Source of the DNA: Bacteroidales bacterium
GTDB taxonomy: Bacteria > Bacteroidota > Bacteroidia > Bacteroidales > UBA12170
DNA length: 45,413 bases
NCBI GenBank assembly: GCA_021157585.1
Contig: JAGGWH010000105.1
Location: 1 to 45,413 of the forward strand
Direction: 5' to 3'
The notes beneath the pieces are model-generated. The model had not been told where the DNA came from and made no database searches. It worked only from the letters and a program-made list of their open reading frames with translations. Shown in pieces: positions 25,247 through 45,413 of this stretch. The translations under genes and the position numbers were made by a program. Numbering within the stretch: position 1 is the first letter of the stretch; the number at the start of each line of letters is the position of its first letter.

Positions 25247-26998
25247 CTATTTAACCGTATATCTCACTTTTTTGATATAGGTCAATATTAGACCTAAAAA
25301 AAGCATTAAAATCAAAGGAGTAAAAACATTAAATATCTGAATAAGAATTTTATTCTTTTCCACTTTGTTTTTGTCGAGCAGGCGTAAAGTAATTTCTCGT
25401 GATCGGATATTTATAAGTCCATTATCCTGACAAAGGTAATTCATAGCATTTATTATAAAATCTTTGTTTCCATAGGTTCGTCTTGTAAACTGATCGAAAC
25501 CCAAAGGCAAAGGATAATGCTGATTATAATGTATTTGATTTTTAATTATATCGCCATCGGCACTTACCAGCATGCTTGTTTTTTCACTCTCATTTTTTCT
25601 TGGTGGAAGGCTAAATTTATCTTTTAAAGCAGGAGTAATTCTATTAGCAAACAGGCTCTTAAACCGTCCGTCTAAAAGCACCACAACGTCTTGAGGAGGA
25701 GCTTGGTAATTAGCCGCATCGGGTTGCTCTTCCAATAAAGCCAAATCAATAACAGCAGGCGTTGCCACCAATCGCGAATAAAGTGAAGACTTTAATAAAA
25801 TAGTTTTTTTAACATTATTCACAGCTACTGTATCTAAAGTAGAAGGAAATTCCGTCATTATACTATTCAAATTTCGTACAATAGGATGCTGCGATTGCGG
25901 CATTAAAACCGGAAAATATAACCAAGGAAGCAGCTCTTGTTGGGCTTGTTTACCAATCATTCCTGTTACAATGGGAATAGAACGGGAATTAAGATCGAGT
26001 AATAAATTACTGTTTAAACGCACTCCGTATTTAAATAATTGATCGTCTAAATTAAGCTCGTTTTTAAGAGCAACTGTTTGACTGCTATTTTTTAAACTAT
26101 CCATATTTGCAATAACAGGATCAATCAGCCAAAAAACTTTTCCACCATGCATTATGTATTGATCAATAACATATTTGTCACTTTCGGAAAATGCTTTAGT
26201 GGGTTGTGCAATAATTAAAGCATCTATTATAGGTTTATCCAATACTTTTTGGGTAATGGTATCAACGGCAAACACACTACTCATTCTACCATCTATTCTC
26301 AAACTACCCAAGATATAAAATTCGTTTAAAGATTTAACTATATCTGCAACGTAAGCGCCTTTTAACTCGCCATGCCCATCTAAAAAAGCGACAGTAGGTT
26401 TTTTATTATCTTGTATTTTCAGCAAAGCCGATGCTAAGTTAAATTCAAGCGTTTCCACAGAATTATTTAGTATTCGTTCCGGAGACACTCCCATTTGTGT
26501 ATTCAGTAATTCAATGGGAATCTCGTAACCCTTATACTCCAAAATAATCCCCGGGAAAATTAATATCTGACTATTGCCATCTTTTTTATTTACGTGTAAA
26601 TTGGTTGGTTGCAGCCCTTTTTTAACAAGTTCCTGAATTAATGTTTCGCGTTTTTTGTTATCGGCTATGCCTGTAGGATTTATGAAAGTATATTCTATAT
26701 AATGACTATGAGCCTTAAACTCTTCCAACATATCTTGGGTTTCGTTACGCAATCTTTTGAAACCTGCCGGAAAATCACCTTCTAAATACACTTTAAAATA
26801 AGCATAATCATCTAATTCTTTGAGCATTTGAATAGTGGCATCCGAAAGAGTATATCTTTTTTCCTGAGTAAGATCAAAGCGCAAATAAACTTGAGATACT
26901 ATTAGGTTTATTAGAAAAATAGCCACTATTCCAATGAAAAGTCGGATTAAACTTTTTTTCTTGTTTTTCCTCGTTTGATATTTCTTTTTATCTACCAT
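25247..26998 (-). CDS. gldG: Gliding motility ABC transporter-associated protein GldG
   Basis: A 583-residue protein. A basic N-terminus and first membrane segment (LIRLFIGIVAIFLINLIVSQVY, about 17-38) precede a large extracytoplasmic region with RFDLTQEKRYTLSDATIQML, typical of the GldG/ABC_transp_aux family, a TVAFLDGHGEL strand and a C-terminal membrane helix (about 553-575). With GldF (permease) and GldA (ATPase) it forms an ABC complex required for gliding in some Bacteroidota. It overlaps gldF by seven bases. No gldA is in the window. Confidence 0.9.
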   Translation of the reverse strand: MVDKKKYQTRKNKKKSLIRLFIGIVAIFLINLIVSQVYLRFDLTQEKRYTLSDATIQMLKELDDYAYFKVYLEGDFPAGFKRLRNETQDMLEEFKAHSHYIEYTFINPTGIADNKKRETLIQELVKKGLQPTNLHVNKKDGNSQILIFPGIILEYKGYEIPIELLNTQMGVSPERILNNSVETLEFNLASALLKIQDNKKPTVAFLDGHGELKGAYVADIVKSLNEFYILGSLRIDGRMSSVFAVDTITQKVLDKPIIDALIIAQPTKAFSESDKYVIDQYIMHGGKVFWLIDPVIANMDSLKNSSQTVALKNELNLDDQLFKYGVRLNSNLLLDLNSRSIPIVTGMIGKQAQQELLPWLYFPVLMPQSQHPIVRNLNSIMTEFPSTLDTVAVNNVKKTILLKSSLYSRLVATPAVIDLALLEEQPDAANYQAPPQDVVVLLDGRFKSLFANRITPALKDKFSLPPRKNESEKTSMLVSADGDIIKNQIHYNQHYPLPLGFDQFTRRTYGNKDFIINAMNYLCQDNGLINIRSREITLRLLDKNKVEKNKILIQIFNVFTPLILMLFLGLILTYIKKVRYTVK

Positions 26999-27723
26999 TT
27001 TCTTCGACTTAAAAGGGTGTGAGTAAATAAAAGAAACAAAGCTGTCAGGCTAATAAAATATATCAAATCGCGTAAGTCAATAACTCCACGGCGAATGGAT
27101 GTATAATGCGCCTGTATTCCTAAGGATTGTACAAACAAATCAAAATTTCCGAATAAATCGAGAGAATAAATTATCTCAAATCCCAAATAAGCAAAAGCAG
27201 AAATGCTAATACCAATTATAAAAGCGATAATCTGGTTGTCGGTAATAGCCGATGAAAATAATCCAATGGCCACAAAAGCCGAAGCCAAAAATATTAAACC
27301 AATATACGACCCCCAAATAATTCCTAAGTCTAAGTTTCCATAGGGAAAACCAAGCCAATAAACACTCAAAACATAAATTAAACTGGGAATTATGGCTATA
27401 ATAACTAAGCTTAATCCTGCTAAGTATTTTGCTCCTATTATTTGCAAATCGTTTAGCGGACGAGTAAAAAGCAATTCAATAGTTCCTGTTTTTTTCTCTT
27501 CTGAGAACATTCTCATGCTTATGGCAGGAATTAAAAATAGAAATACAAAAGGAGCTAACATAAAAAACGGATCGAGGTTAGCATAAGCAAAATCAAGGAT
27601 ATTGTATTCTGTAGGAAAAACCCATAAAAACAAACCCGTAATAAGTAAAAACACCAAGATTACAACATAACCAATTAGTGTATTTAAAAAAGCTGCTATT
27701 TCTTTTTTGTATAGTGCAAACAT
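26992..27723 (-). CDS. gldF: Gliding motility ABC transporter permease GldF
   Basis: A 243-residue ABC-2 type permease with six membrane helices. The N-terminus MFALYKKEIAAFLNTLIGYV and the segment SMRMFSEEKKTGTIELLFTR (about 69-88) are typical of GldF and NosY-like permeases. It is the membrane channel of the GldAFG complex; its ATPase must be encoded elsewhere. The gene begins 23 bases after the SAM hydrolase-like gene and overlaps gldG, so the three form an operon. Confidence 0.9.
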   Translation of the reverse strand: MFALYKKEIAAFLNTLIGYVVILVFLLITGLFLWVFPTEYNILDFAYANLDPFFMLAPFVFLFLIPAISMRMFSEEKKTGTIELLFTRPLNDLQIIGAKYLAGLSLVIIAIIPSLIYVLSVYWLGFPYGNLDLGIIWGSYIGLIFLASAFVAIGLFSSAITDNQIIAFIIGISISAFAYLGFEIIYSLDLFGNFDLFVQSLGIQAHYTSIRRGVIDLRDLIYFISLTALFLLFTHTLLSRRKW

Positions 27724-31140: not shown

Positions 31141-33456
31141 ATGAAATACACCACACTTATTATACTTTTTCTTTTTCAAACTTATTTTCTTTCAGCTCAA
31201 AATATTCCTCTTGGTCATTGGCGCGACGAACTACCTTACAGCCAGCTTACATCTATTACAGAATCAGAAGATTTTGTATACGCCGCTACACCCTACAGCA
31301 TCCTCAGTTTCCATAAAAAAGAAGCGGTACTCGATCGTATTTCTAAAGTGAATGGCTTGAATGATTTCGGGATTAGTACCATTCGTTATAATCCGGAATA
31401 CAAAACACTGTTTATTGCTTATACCAATGCTAATATTGATTTAATAAAAAACGGAGAAATTGTAAATCTATCTGATATAAAGCGAAAAACCATTTTAGGT
31501 AATAAAACCATTAATGATATTTTCTTTATTAATCAGTTTGCTTATTTATCTTGCGGATTTGGAATAGTGGTTGTTGATATTGAGCGCGAAGAAATAAAAG
31601 ACACCTATTATGTTGGAGAAAATGGAGAAAATGTTGAGGTTTTTGATTTAGATGTTTTAGACGGAGAATTTTTTGCAGCAACGGAAAACGGTATTTACCG
31701 AGCAAATATCGATAATCCAAACTTAGCAAATTTCAATAATTGGATTAAGCTAACTCATTTGCCTTTTCAGGATGCTCCCTATAATCATATTGTGGCTTTT
31801 CAGGATGAGCTTGTTGTAAATAGGTTTACTAATAGCTCTAAAGATCAGATGTTTGCCATAACATCAAACTCGTGGAAGGAAATGATATCCCCTATTAACG
31901 ATAAGGTTTTAAATCTTGATGTTAGTAATGATAAATTATTATGTTCACATAAATATTCTTTAGGGATTTTTAATTCCGATTTTTCATTTGATCGTAAAAT
32001 ATATACTTATGGCGAAGGCTTTGAAATAACTCTTCAGCCTAATGCTGTTCTTACTTCTTCTGACGGGAATTATTATATAGCCGATAGAGCTCAGGGCTTA
32101 GTTAGTTCTCCGGATTTACAGCATTTTCAGAGTCATATTTTAAATGGACCACGTACTACAAAAGTTTTTGATATGTCTGTTGTAGGATCAAAAGTTGTAG
32201 TTGCTGCCGGAGGCAGAACCGATTCTTATGGGAATGTGTATATGAAAGACGGCATTTTTACTTATACAGATGGCTTTTGGACTAATTATTACAAGGGCAA
32301 TGTACCCGCTTTAGACACAGCTTACGACTTTGTTTGTGTTGATATAAATCCTAATAATCCCAACGAATATGCCGTTGGAACTTGGGGGAAAGGATTATAC
32401 ACTTTTGATGAAAACGGTTTTGTAGAAGCATATGGAAGACATAATAGCAGTTTAACTCCCAATTCTATCTACAGTCATATTATGCGTTTGGGTGGTGTTG
32501 CCTACGATTCTAAAAATAATTTATGGGTAGCTTCCGCTGAATCTAATGCTCTTTTGCATAAGCGTGAACCTTCAGGAGAGTGGACTCCCTTTGAATTTGG
32601 TGCTTGGAGTTCATACAACATAAAAGATATGTTGGCAGATAATAGAGATTATTTGTGGATGTCGGTACGTATAGGCGGAGTATATTCACTTTTAGTATTT
32701 GATGAAAGTCGGCCAACAGGTCAACAGCTTAAAGGCTTGAGTACGGCTGTTGGAAGTGGAAATATACCCGGAACTATGGTATTGTCTTTAGCTTGCGATT
32801 TAGATGGCGAAATGTGGATAGGAACGGATAAAGGTATAGGTGTTATTTATCAAGCAGAGAATATTTTTTATGGAGGAGATTATGATGCTCAAAAAATTAT
32901 TGTAGAACGCGATGGTTACGCTCAATATTTGCTCGATAAAGAGAAAGTAAAAACCATAGCTGTTGATGGTGCTAACCGTAAATGGATAGGAACAGAAAGG
33001 GCAGGAGTATTTTTACTTTCTGCCGACGGTCAGGAAGAATTGCTTCATTTTACAACAGAAAATAGTCCGTTGTATTCTGATAATATCACACAAATTGGAA
33101 TAAATGATGATGGCGAAGTATATATTGGAACCGATCAGGGTTTGATTGTTTATAAAGGAACGGCAACCAAAGGAGAAGAAGAAAATATTTTTGCAGATGT
33201 TTATGCTTATCCCAATCCCGTGCGACCAGATTATGTAGGTCCAATTGCCATTAAAGGTTTAAGTCGAGATGCTTTTATAAAAATTACAGACATCAGCGGA
33301 CGCTTGGTAAATGAAATTAGATCTGATGGCGGTCAAGCTATTTGGAGTGGCAATAACCTACAAGGAGATCGTGTGCAAACAGGTATTTATTTAGTTTTTA
33401 TTGCTAATACCGACGGCTCAGAAAGCATAGTAACAAAAATTATGTTTATACATTAA
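31141..33456 (+). CDS. porZ: PorZ-like type IX secretion beta-propeller protein
   Basis: A 771-residue exported protein. The signal peptide MKYTTLIILFLFQTYFLSAQ precedes repeated propeller blades; the first reads HWRDELPYSQLTSITESEDF, then YAATPYSILSF and RISKVNGLNDFGIS, the PorZ N-terminal pattern. Later blades carry WIGTDKGIGVI and YIGTDQGLIVY two-component-regulator-propeller motifs. The last ~80 residues (VYAYPNPVRPDY..., ISGRLVNEI, GIYLVFI) are a T9SS type A sorting domain. In Porphyromonas PorZ belongs to the surface attachment complex with PorU, PorV and PorQ. It stands alone here. Confidence 0.87.
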   Translation: MKYTTLIILFLFQTYFLSAQNIPLGHWRDELPYSQLTSITESEDFVYAATPYSILSFHKKEAVLDRISKVNGLNDFGISTIRYNPEYKTLFIAYTNANIDLIKNGEIVNLSDIKRKTILGNKTINDIFFINQFAYLSCGFGIVVVDIEREEIKDTYYVGENGENVEVFDLDVLDGEFFAATENGIYRANIDNPNLANFNNWIKLTHLPFQDAPYNHIVAFQDELVVNRFTNSSKDQMFAITSNSWKEMISPINDKVLNLDVSNDKLLCSHKYSLGIFNSDFSFDRKIYTYGEGFEITLQPNAVLTSSDGNYYIADRAQGLVSSPDLQHFQSHILNGPRTTKVFDMSVVGSKVVVAAGGRTDSYGNVYMKDGIFTYTDGFWTNYYKGNVPALDTAYDFVCVDINPNNPNEYAVGTWGKGLYTFDENGFVEAYGRHNSSLTPNSIYSHIMRLGGVAYDSKNNLWVASAESNALLHKREPSGEWTPFEFGAWSSYNIKDMLADNRDYLWMSVRIGGVYSLLVFDESRPTGQQLKGLSTAVGSGNIPGTMVLSLACDLDGEMWIGTDKGIGVIYQAENIFYGGDYDAQKIIVERDGYAQYLLDKEKVKTIAVDGANRKWIGTERAGVFLLSADGQEELLHFTTENSPLYSDNITQIGINDDGEVYIGTDQGLIVYKGTATKGEEENIFADVYAYPNPVRPDYVGPIAIKGLSRDAFIKITDISGRLVNEIRSDGGQAIWSGNNLQGDRVQTGIYLVFIANTDGSESIVTKIMFIH

Positions 33457-43263: not shown

Positions 43264-43310
43264 ATTACGGATACCCTTATTTTTGTAATTTACTTATATT
43301 AAGTAATTTG

Positions 43311-43356
43311 AATGTGATTTTAAGCCTGTATAAAGGCTTAAAATCACATTTTTTTT
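43311..43356 (+). terminator. Strong terminator of pgi
   Basis: A perfect 17-bp stem (AATGTGATTTTAAGCCT at 43311-43327 with AGGCTTAAAATCACATT at 43334-43350), six-base loop, then a T-run. Confidence 0.85.
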
Positions 43357-43489: not shown

Positions 43490-43957
43490 ATGAAACGACT
43501 AGTATTGCTATCAATTTTAAATCTCTTTTTATTATCGAATAATAATGCACAAGAAGTTATAACAACAGCCGGAGATTATTATTTAGCTCCCTCAGGCTCT
43601 TTAAGCTGGACATTTGGTGAAACGATAACAGAGACTTTTTCGACTGGAATAAACGCCTTGACCCAAGGGTTTAATCAATCACAGTTATCGGCAACAGCTA
43701 CTTACCAACTCCCCACTTTAGATTTTAATATTAAAGCATATCCAAATCCAACATCCAATTTTATAATATTAGAAACGGATAAAATTCGCAAACTGGAATA
43801 TCAAGTTTTCAATCAACAAGGCAAACTTATAATCCAATCTGAACTGTCTGATTTTCAAACAAAAATAGATTTTCAAGAGCTTATTCCCGCCATATATATC
43901 ATTAAAATATTTGAAAATAATATTCCTCTTAAACAATTTAAAATTGTTAAACAATAA
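43490..43957 (+). CDS. Small secreted protein with T9SS type A sorting domain
   Basis: A 155-residue protein. The signal peptide MKRLVLLSILNLFLLSNNNA precedes a short region with AGDYYLAPSGSLSWTFGETI and ALTQGFNQSQ, a motif common in small Bacteroidota surface proteins. Residues about 80-155 form a sorting domain: FNIKAYPNPTSNFIILETD, then LEYQVFNQQGKLI and IPAIYIIKIF. The sorting tail would direct export through the type IX system and attachment to the surface. Only some 60 residues lie between signal and tail, so the cargo is minimal. A repetitive surface protein gene follows 82 bases later. Confidence 0.82.
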   Translation: MKRLVLLSILNLFLLSNNNAQEVITTAGDYYLAPSGSLSWTFGETITETFSTGINALTQGFNQSQLSATATYQLPTLDFNIKAYPNPTSNFIILETDKIRKLEYQVFNQQGKLIIQSELSDFQTKIDFQELIPAIYIIKIFENNIPLKQFKIVKQ

Positions 43958-44039
43958 ACTTACAAAACTGAAAATATTCACTAAGCGAGACACCAAAATC
44001 AGCTGCGACTTTAACTTATCGAATTAAATAACAATACAT

Positions 44040-45413
44040 ATGAAAAAAATTACTCTACTATTTTTCGCTCTTTTATTACAATTTCAACTCTTTGCACAAA
44101 ACAGTCCTGGATTTAAATACCAAGCCCTTGTTCGCGATGACAATGGGGTAGTTCTAACAAAGCAAGCGGTAAGTCTCCAGATTAGTTTAATGCAGGGCAT
44201 TCCTAATGGATCTGCTATTTATTCTGAAACCTTTTTGACTGAGACAAATGACTTTGGTCTTATCAATCTGACCATTGGACAAGGCGAAACCGCTGATGAT
44301 TTTATGGCTATCGACTGGGCTAATGGTCCGTATTTTATTGAAATTGCAATGGATATTCATGGAGGTGTCGACTATCAGCTTTTTGGGATAAGCGAACTAA
44401 TGTCTGTTCCTTATGCGCTTCATGCTAAAACGGCAGAATCTGTTGAAAACTTAACTATCACCGAATCAGATCCTGTTTTCTCTGCTTCCGTTTCATCCCA
44501 TATTACAGCTAATGATACAACAAACTGGAATGCTGCTTTTGCTTGGGGAAACCATCAAAGTATGGGATACGTGACTTTAGATGGAGTTGAGACACTTACA
44601 AATAAAACATTAACAACACCTATTATTTTTGAGCCTATCGGTATAGAAAAAGCTGATGTTGGCTTGGGAAATGTTGATAATACAGCAGATAGCTTAAAAC
44701 CCATAAGCAAAGACACCCAAGCAGCTTTAGATTTAAAAGAGGATTTAATAAACAAAAGTACAGACGAACTCCTTTCAGAGAACTCGGATACTTTATACCC
44801 TTCTCAAAAAGCAATAAAAACTTATGTTGATACAAAAAGCAATGCTGTTGAAACAGCATTAGATGAGGAGATTGCTCGTGCTACCGCTGCGGAAACAGTA
44901 AATGCTACGGCCATTTCCGATGAAGAGAGCAGAGCTTTAGCTGCAGAGGAAATCATTACAACCGCCCTTACGGATGAAGTTGCTCGTGCAATAGGAGCTG
45001 ATACAACACATACAAATGCAATTACAGCAAATGCAATAGCTATTGATGAGGAAGTTTCCCGAGCTATTGGTGCGGATACTACTAATACGAATGCCATTTC
45101 AAGCGAAGAAGCAAGAGCTTTAGCTGTCGAATCTAATCTTGCAGCCGATATTGCAACTACAAATACAGCTCTTGCAGATGAAACTTCTCGTGCTATCGCT
45201 GCGGAAGCAGCAAATACTACTGCCATTTCCGATGAAGAGAGCAGAGCTTTAGCTGCAGAGGAAATCATTACAGCCGCCCTTACGGATGAAGTTGCTCGCG
45301 CAATAGGAGCTGATACAACACATACAAATGCAATTACAGCAAATGCAATAGCTATTGATGAGGAAGTTTCCCGAGCTATTGGTGCGGATACTACTAATAC
45401 GAATGCCATTTCA
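44040..45413 (+). CDS. Tail-fibre-like repetitive surface protein (3' end outside window)
   Basis: An open frame of 458 codons starts at ATG 44040 and runs off the window. The signal peptide MKKITLLFFALLLQFQLFAQ is followed by an N-terminal domain common in Bacteroidota surface proteins (GFKYQALVRDDNGVVL, NDFGLINLTIGQG, YFIEIAMDIHGG, then MSVPYALHAKTAE). A fibre-like section follows (GLGNVDNTADSLKPISKDTQ, LYPSQKAIKTYVDTK), like phage tail-fibre sequences. From about residue 270 it is built of ~18-residue repeats of the DEESRALAAE/DEVARAIGAD type ending NAI, likely a coiled-coil stalk. A 192-base block recurs with a 312-base period. Whether it ends in a peptidase S74 or T9SS domain cannot be seen. 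Confidence 0.8.
   Translation, partial: MKKITLLFFALLLQFQLFAQNSPGFKYQALVRDDNGVVLTKQAVSLQISLMQGIPNGSAIYSETFLTETNDFGLINLTIGQGETADDFMAIDWANGPYFIEIAMDIHGGVDYQLFGISELMSVPYALHAKTAESVENLTITESDPVFSASVSSHITANDTTNWNAAFAWGNHQSMGYVTLDGVETLTNKTLTTPIIFEPIGIEKADVGLGNVDNTADSLKPISKDTQAALDLKEDLINKSTDELLSENSDTLYPSQKAIKTYVDTKSNAVETALDEEIARATAAETVNATAISDEESRALAAEEIITTALTDEVARAIGADTTHTNAITANAIAIDEEVSRAIGADTTNTNAISSEEARALAVESNLAADIATTNTALADETSRAIAAEAANTTAISDEESRALAAEEIITAALTDEVARAIGADTTHTNAITANAIAIDEEVSRAIGADTTNTNAIS
44910..45413 (+). repeat. Near-identical direct repeat inside the fibre gene
   Basis: The block 44910-45101 recurs at 45222-45413 with period 312 bases (104 codons). By eye I count only two mismatches in 192 bases, both at single positions. 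The flanks to the left are also similar but diverged. The second copy is cut at the window edge, so more copies may follow. Confidence 0.85.

Follow-up and report, generated by a model that had tools for sequence, protein, structure and literature searches.

Introduction

The closest described relatives of the fiber protein reported here are the mosaic adhesive trimer (MAT) fibers of Bdellovibrio bacteriovorus, which, according to PMC10769870, have a signal peptide, a β-rich N-domain of about 130 aa, a fiber, and exchangeable tips. S74 and lectin-like folds are given there among the tips, and the surface element that is bound by the N-domain awaits identification according to the same paper. 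For proteins secreted through the T9SS, the type A sorting domain (CTD) is carried by PorV, and PorU/PorQ/PorZ removes the CTD and anchors the cargo to anionic LPS (A-LPS) (PMC12618676, PMC10994853, and PMC9950754). In the type B system (PMC12618676), the secreted protein has the CTD and its partner is a shuttle.

Here we describe a pair of adjacent genes, one encoding a mini-protein with a T9SS type A CTD and the other a fiber protein with a MAT-like N-domain, whose recurrence across the phylum suggests that the tiny protein carries the fiber or ties it to the cell surface. Among the matches listed from the full-text literature, a body of text with most subscription journals and bioRxiv outside its scope, we found no description of this pair. 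Candidate precedents were rejected: the "two novel tandem genes" of PMC9950754 are polysaccharide genes, PMC9478572 names a tail fiber only in a reference, and the piggyback transport of PMC9251779 is that of peroxisomes, not of the T9SS.

The Mini-Protein and the Fiber Gene

The stretch of DNA that was analyzed (the window; 45,413 nucleotides) is the entire contig C105 of a Bacteroidota-type genome of 183 contigs, and its relevant features are collected in table 1. The genes around the pair resemble housekeeping and gliding/T9SS genes, and no virion genes were noticed among the window translations read. The gliding/T9SS-associated genes GldG, GldF, and PorZ are thus present in the same window as the pair; the T9SS components found in this genome are SprA (contig C65), PorV (contig C94), and PorZ itself. 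The hairpin downstream of pgi would set that gene apart from the pair. The gap between the mini-protein gene and the fiber gene measures 82 bp, and no terminator-like site was found between them on the + strand.

Table 1.— Features of the Window, in Order of Position
Feature	Position	Strand	Basis
GldG and GldF, gliding ABC transporter genes	25247-27723	-	Both above NCBIfam cut-offs
PorZ, A-LPS delivery protein of the T9SS attachment complex	31141..33456	+	NF052228, 639.9 bits (cut-off 260)
Terminator-like hairpin 3' of pgi	43310..43351	+	Stem of 18 pairs with a loop of 6 and a T tail; fits the consensus but does not prove a terminator
Mini-protein gene, 155 aa	43490..43957	+	ORF list; TIGR04183 and PF18962 matches
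Mini-protein signal peptide, residues 1-20, cleavage before Gln21	43490..43549	+	By inspection
Mini-protein conserved core, residues 21-66, motif SLSWT.GE...T......LTQGF.Q	43550..43687	+	Profile/alignment comparison
Mini-protein T9SS type A sorting domain (CTD), residues 83-155	43736..43954	+	TIGR04183, PF18962
Fiber gene, 458 aa present, open at contig end 45413	44040..45413	+	ORF list
Fiber signal peptide, residues 1-19, ends FA|Q, without lipobox	44040..44096	+	By inspection
Fiber N-terminal β domain, residues 20-135	44097..44444	+	Distant relative of Bdellovibrio MAT N-domain (NF053851)
TESDPxF..NW..A..WGNH segment, common to phage tail fibers	44445..44582	+	PHROGs, phage matches
Phage minor-tail/tail-fiber-like segment, residues 200-251	44637..44792	+	PHROGs
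Ala/Thr/Glu-rich stalk, repeats of 312 bp (104 aa), the contig ending within the second copy	44838..45413	+	Repeat comparison

The mini-protein passes as a T9SS type A cargo, with a Sec signal peptide (for its cleavage site see the "Q-rule" paper, PMC5837995) and a type A CTD that scores above cut-off with both TIGR04183 (43.1 bits, cut-off 23) and PF18962 (residues 84-145; 38.8 bits, cut-off 27). Pfam and NCBIfam gave no family for it beyond these matches to the CTD. Only 62 residues separate the signal peptide from the CTD, which bears out the figure of about 60 given in an earlier reading of the DNA made from its letters alone (the sequence-only reading). In the structural model, the CTD is of high confidence (pLDDT blocks 93-97) and the core, which is small and β-rich, of moderate confidence only (about 57-81). 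A fold search of the PDB with this model returned nothing below an E-value of 0.001, generic β-sandwiches being the top matches; the CTDs of mirolase (rank 6), RemA (7), NucA (19), and RemZ (23) follow at E-values of 0.005-0.024, and with a further one at rank 43 these make up the solved T9SS CTDs, a resemblance that is weak by E-value. The core also precedes the CTD of larger proteins adjoining fibers (L068 and L131). At the first of these loci (G022:C197), a long protein with CUB-like repeats, as judged by eye, has a C-terminal core and CTD and lies directly 5' of a collagen-like fiber gene; it comprises at least 642 aa, being cut by the locus, in an open frame of 1419 aa.

The signal peptide of the fiber protein runs straight into the β-rich N-domain, as is required of a MAT fiber. 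The NCBIfam model of the MAT N-domain (NF053851) matches 86 of 86 Bacteroidota N-domains at E≤1e-3, with a best value of 6.3e-14. The domain of the window, included among these, reaches 33-33.6 bits, under the curated cut-off of 60, and we therefore regard it as a distant relative and not as a filed member of the MAT family. Its model is β-rich, with pLDDT blocks of 91-98 over model residues 11-100, and a fold search with it gave no convincing solved relative, the best being the neck of phage XM1 (E-value 2.6e-4, TM-score 0.34 by query). No PHROGs match at E≤1e-3 falls on the N-domain; tail-fiber and minor-tail matches to PHROGs lie at residues 136-251, and weaker ones beyond. In the stalk, two 249-nt repeat copies are 94% identical. 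The sequence-only reading had described a secreted protein combining a surface domain, a phage-fiber-like part, and a repeat stalk, a description upheld by the N-domain, the PHROGs matches, and the 312-bp repeats. A constant N-domain with variable tips, as in MAT fibers, is also seen among 80 relatives, and the window fiber looks to work like a MAT fiber.

Because the contig ends at 45413, the C-terminus of the fiber is absent from the window, and its other half was looked for elsewhere in the genome at the DNA and protein levels. The sole S74 match of the genome (39.7 bits) lies on another contig, C71, near the end of a fiber-like ORF of 435 aa that runs off the contig and is open at its end. 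This ORF has YadA-head repeats and S74, with no sorting domain among its Pfam matches (only YadA_head and S74), and it matches phage tail-fiber families of the PHROGs. It is probably the second half of the window fiber gene, because its genome has one match to the fiber N-domain profile and one to S74, and because a congener (G007) offers a parallel: one N-domain match, and on its contig C63 a fiber half with S74 that begins in stalk repeats of the window style. The last 400 bases of C105 and C71 have no 15-mer in common, the genes downstream of C71 and of the congener's C63 differ, and in genome G010 there is no matching C-terminal half. For the S74 chaperone that the sequence-only reading suggested seeking beyond 45413, the support is indirect: the genome has a single S74 match, on a fiber-like ORF whose connection to the window gene is a probable one.

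In a further genome, G005, an S74-like fiber protein (by eye; L168, G005:C247) adjoins apparently phage-tail-type genes, and the genome has no match to the MAT-type N-domain profile; this is perhaps a prophage-style fiber within the same genus.

Linkage of the Pair across Relatives

The same 60 relatives were searched with the core and the fiber N-domain profiles, and all rows were counted. Of 68 cores, 44 have a fiber match on the same strand within 1 kb downstream, against a rough chance expectation of 0.05, although linked matches are favored in this count, since the core profile (alignment A6: the window and 70 of 87 cores) was built largely from fiber-linked cores. The median distance from core to fiber is about 390 bases. 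No fiber follows directly after the remaining 24 cores, and 10 of these lie within 6 kb of one. By genome, both partners occur in 33, only the core in 1, only the fiber in 6, and neither in 20; fiber matches are thus found in 33/34 core-positive genomes versus 6/26 core-negative ones (Fisher 1e-9). The fiber-positive genomes without a detected core, 6 of 39, are G001, G006, G014, G027, G041, and G054. Fiber matches exceed core matches by 136 to 68, these being matches and not genes, and the 136 include a few short fragments as well as six matches that share an open frame (G026:C598). No core lies directly upstream of 92 of the 136, and tandem groups of fibers occur behind a single mini-protein, for example at G034:C4.

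The open frame with six matches (G026:C598:2696-4969, - strand; 917 aa) has the MAT-type N-domain match six times over, as if the docking domain itself were repeated. Tandem clusters of at least three fiber genes were also seen at L124, L146, and L130, with no mini-protein core detected in the locus.

A second set consisted of 80 named loci (1.22 Mb), fetched via the fiber domain. Ninety-four of their 100 fiber domains were counted, six with less than 1.2 kb upstream being dropped and two of the 94 being fragments in L133, and 62 of these have a core and a CTD within 1 kb upstream. Two further fibers are preceded by divergent mini-proteins (L147 and L157; by eye), and of the fibers without an upstream core some follow another fiber and some have unrelated neighbors. 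Conversely, a fiber lies within 1 kb downstream of 63 of the 68 cores in these 1.22 Mb, and CTD proteins without a detected core have a fiber within 600 bases of the end of their CTD in 7 of 50 cases, two of the seven being the divergent mini-proteins just named. In a third set of 29 loci, which are the best-scoring matches to the window mini-protein and not a random draw, a fiber is next in 22, not in 6, and has no room in 1. As judged by eye, one of these six has a convergent fiber (L053) and another follows an S74-type protein (L055), and in the others (L057, L062, L069, and L073) there is no fiber within a flank of about 1.5 kb.

The pairing of mini-protein and fiber is not due to chance. 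The adjacency survey finds a linkage that is strong and reciprocal (44/68 cores and 62/94 fibers), which disposes of the doubt, raised in the sequence-only reading, that the partner genes might not be linked elsewhere. Among genomes with a mini-protein/CTD query match, 129 of 168 have fiber matches, versus 2 of 30 without such a match (G148 and G160). CTD proteins are abundant across these genomes. SprA was tried as a marker of T9SS loss and set aside: it is present in 188 of 198 genomes and therefore discriminates weakly, and one of the ten SprA-negative genomes (G136) has a fiber. The records that hold named pairs have Bacteroidales, Flavobacteriales, and other names in their titles, among them Reichenbachiella, a genus of the order Cytophagales, and the pair is also found in Flavobacterium soyae, F. 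aquicola, and Reichenbachiella faecimaris. No natural fusion of core and fiber N-domain was found among the loci examined.

Co-Divergence of the Partners

Distances between cores and between N-domains are correlated over 114 adjacent pairs (Mantel r 0.68), a set in which one genome may occur under both a named and an unnamed label. Shuffling of partners within multi-pair genomes (21 genomes, 47 pairs) reaches this value in 26 of 5000 trials. The CTD alone gives 10 of 5000 in the same shuffling and so co-diverges with the fiber as clearly as the core does, which indicates that the pairs stay together and does not thereby show contact of core and fiber; co-divergence would also be expected if the pair were simply inherited as a unit. 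The alignments comprised the window with 78 of 87 mini-proteins (A3) and the window, L021, and 84 of 120 fiber regions (A4).

Of the 88 pairs that could be classified (26 of the 114 being unclassified), 85 agree in subtype, with two-way motifs that were picked after inspection of the alignments: cores with "QGVQQ" pair with fibers having "MSYQ" by 40 to 2, and cores with "QGF.Q" with "F.YQ" by 45 to 1. Within four genomes (G154, G062, PHDB, and G127) both subtypes are present and correctly matched; in G171, one of the two pairs violates the rule.

Distribution of the Sorting Tag

A CTD model (E<0.1) matches 79 of 79 mini-proteins, from which it was built, versus none of 85 full-length fibers; TIGR04183, as an independent check, matches 78 of the 79. 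The 85 exclude eight fibers truncated where a contig or locus ends, domains of less than 95 residues, repeats in the same protein, and cases without a suitable Met. By crude rules, 83 of the 85 begin in a signal-peptide-like manner, and a lipobox-like motif occurs in none of them and in 2 of 79 mini-proteins. Pfam was run on 80 of the 85 (alignment A5, five fibers of over 1300 aa being left out) and gave 18 families in all, with collagen in 23, Lcl_C in 18, Fib_succ_major in 12, and S74 in 12. A T9SS tail is absent from these 18 families, and no anchor family is found among the Pfam matches of the 80 fibers or among those of the C-terminal halves on C71 and on C63 of G007. The T9SS domain that the sequence-only reading had also suggested seeking beyond the contig end finds no support in the 85 full-length relatives, and without such a domain an adaptor is needed all the more.

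Proposed Mechanism and Alternatives

On the most economical reading, the mini-protein would supply in trans the surface anchoring that the fiber is missing, and possibly its export too. We give a rough probability of 0.55 to the mini-protein being the physical partner of the fiber, exporting it, anchoring it, or both. The two genes would then form a surface-adhesin unit of a fiber and its T9SS partner. The fiber itself would be a secreted adhesin, probably a trimer, made up of a stalk, a tip that can be exchanged, and an N-terminal docking domain that stays constant. Both proteins would be exported by Sec, and the core of the mini-protein would bind the N-domain of the fiber. The type A CTD of the mini-protein would engage PorV/SprA and cross the outer membrane, after which the PorU/PorQ/PorZ complex would cut off the CTD and join the mini-protein to A-LPS, so that the fiber would be held at the surface. 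One mini-protein may serve several fibers with different tips; fibers outnumbering cores, and standing in tandem behind one mini-protein, are what would be expected of such a dock. Several results count against this reading: the 92 of 136 fiber matches and the six fiber-positive genomes lacking an upstream or any detected core, the 24 of 68 cores not placed before a fiber, the four mini-protein loci with no fiber in the flank, the fibers of G148 and G160, and the moderate confidence of the core model.

The least certain step is the crossing of the outer membrane by the fiber, which the mini-protein may carry over as its passenger or may only catch outside once it has taken a different path. 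Export in trans, with a tagless, trimeric, MAT-like fiber passing the SprA pore as passenger and then being LPS-anchored, is a possibility that we put forward tentatively. Rather doubtful is anchoring alone, a sub-case of the same partnership, in which the fiber would reach the surface independently and its N-domain would be captured outside by the T9SS-exported, LPS-linked mini-protein. It draws on the same linkage data, and the 136 fiber matches to 68 core matches, together with tandem groups such as that at G034:C4, suit a shared surface dock. Bdellovibrio is not known to have a T9SS, and since MAT fibers occur there, a route other than the T9SS must exist in that organism. The Bacteroidota fibers, however, show no other outer-membrane export feature, with no lipobox-like motif in 85 and no Pfam anchor family in 80.

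Outside the partnership of mini-protein and fiber, the two could be independent surface proteins kept together by joint expression or horizontal transfer without any contact. The pairs do travel as units, these genomes are rich in CTD proteins, and mini-proteins and fibers exist without a partner in reach, yet this is unlikely given that adjacency is 63/68 for cores and 7/50 for CTD proteins without a detected core, that subtypes are matched in the four genomes holding both, and that the fibers are without any detectable surface tag. It is very unlikely that the mini-protein serves fiber biogenesis, acting in the periplasm as a chaperone of the N-domain trimer or by donating a strand to it, with the CTD serving only to dispose of the mini-protein afterwards: the core is small and β-rich and the mini-protein gene comes first in the pair, but a dedicated export tag would be wasteful on a periplasmic chaperone, and the core is found on larger CTD proteins too (L068 and L131). 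The sequence-only reading had proposed the mini-protein as an adaptor for assembling the fiber; the adaptor part is retained here as what the sequences suggest, and nothing specific supports a role in assembly as distinct from export or anchoring. A prophage or phage-derived tail-fiber module in place of a cellular adhesin is hardly credible, since the TESDP/WGNH and minor-tail segments match phage fibers but the N-domain is without a PHROGs match, the phage matches (37 records, none covering 80% of the query) begin at residue 91 or later in the 30 listed, both proteins have signal peptides, and the neighbors in the window look like housekeeping genes.

The pair bears on a question stated as open for Bdellovibrio in PMC10769870, namely how MAT-type fibers are attached to the surface of their owner. 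A distant relative of the MAT N-domain with a conserved, tagged neighbor, also present in named strains, makes this question directly testable. If the fiber rides on the mini-protein, the list of T9SS substrates must include CTD-less proteins, which CTD-based inventories miss. Export in trans, if true, would mean that the T9SS can secrete a protein piggyback, and a surface receptor would thereby be identified for an N-domain of the MAT type.

Comparison with Known Systems

Phage tail fibers, among them those of Synechococcus, Alteromonas, and Maribacter phages, have TESDP/WGNH repeats as the window fiber does, but the phage matches listed do not reach its N-domain. The window fiber differs from the MAT fibers of Bdellovibrio in that its host belongs to the Bacteroidota and in having a T9SS mini-protein as partner. 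With the type B cargo and its PorP/SprF shuttle (PMC12618676), the pair shares the genetic linkage of a T9SS substrate to a dedicated partner; here, however, it is the partner that has the CTD, and the fiber is apparently without one. With the type A cargo proteins RemA, RemZ, and NucA (PMC10994853), the mini-protein shares the signal peptide and type A CTD, but unlike them it is nearly without a passenger, and what is presumed to be the functional cargo forms a polypeptide of its own.
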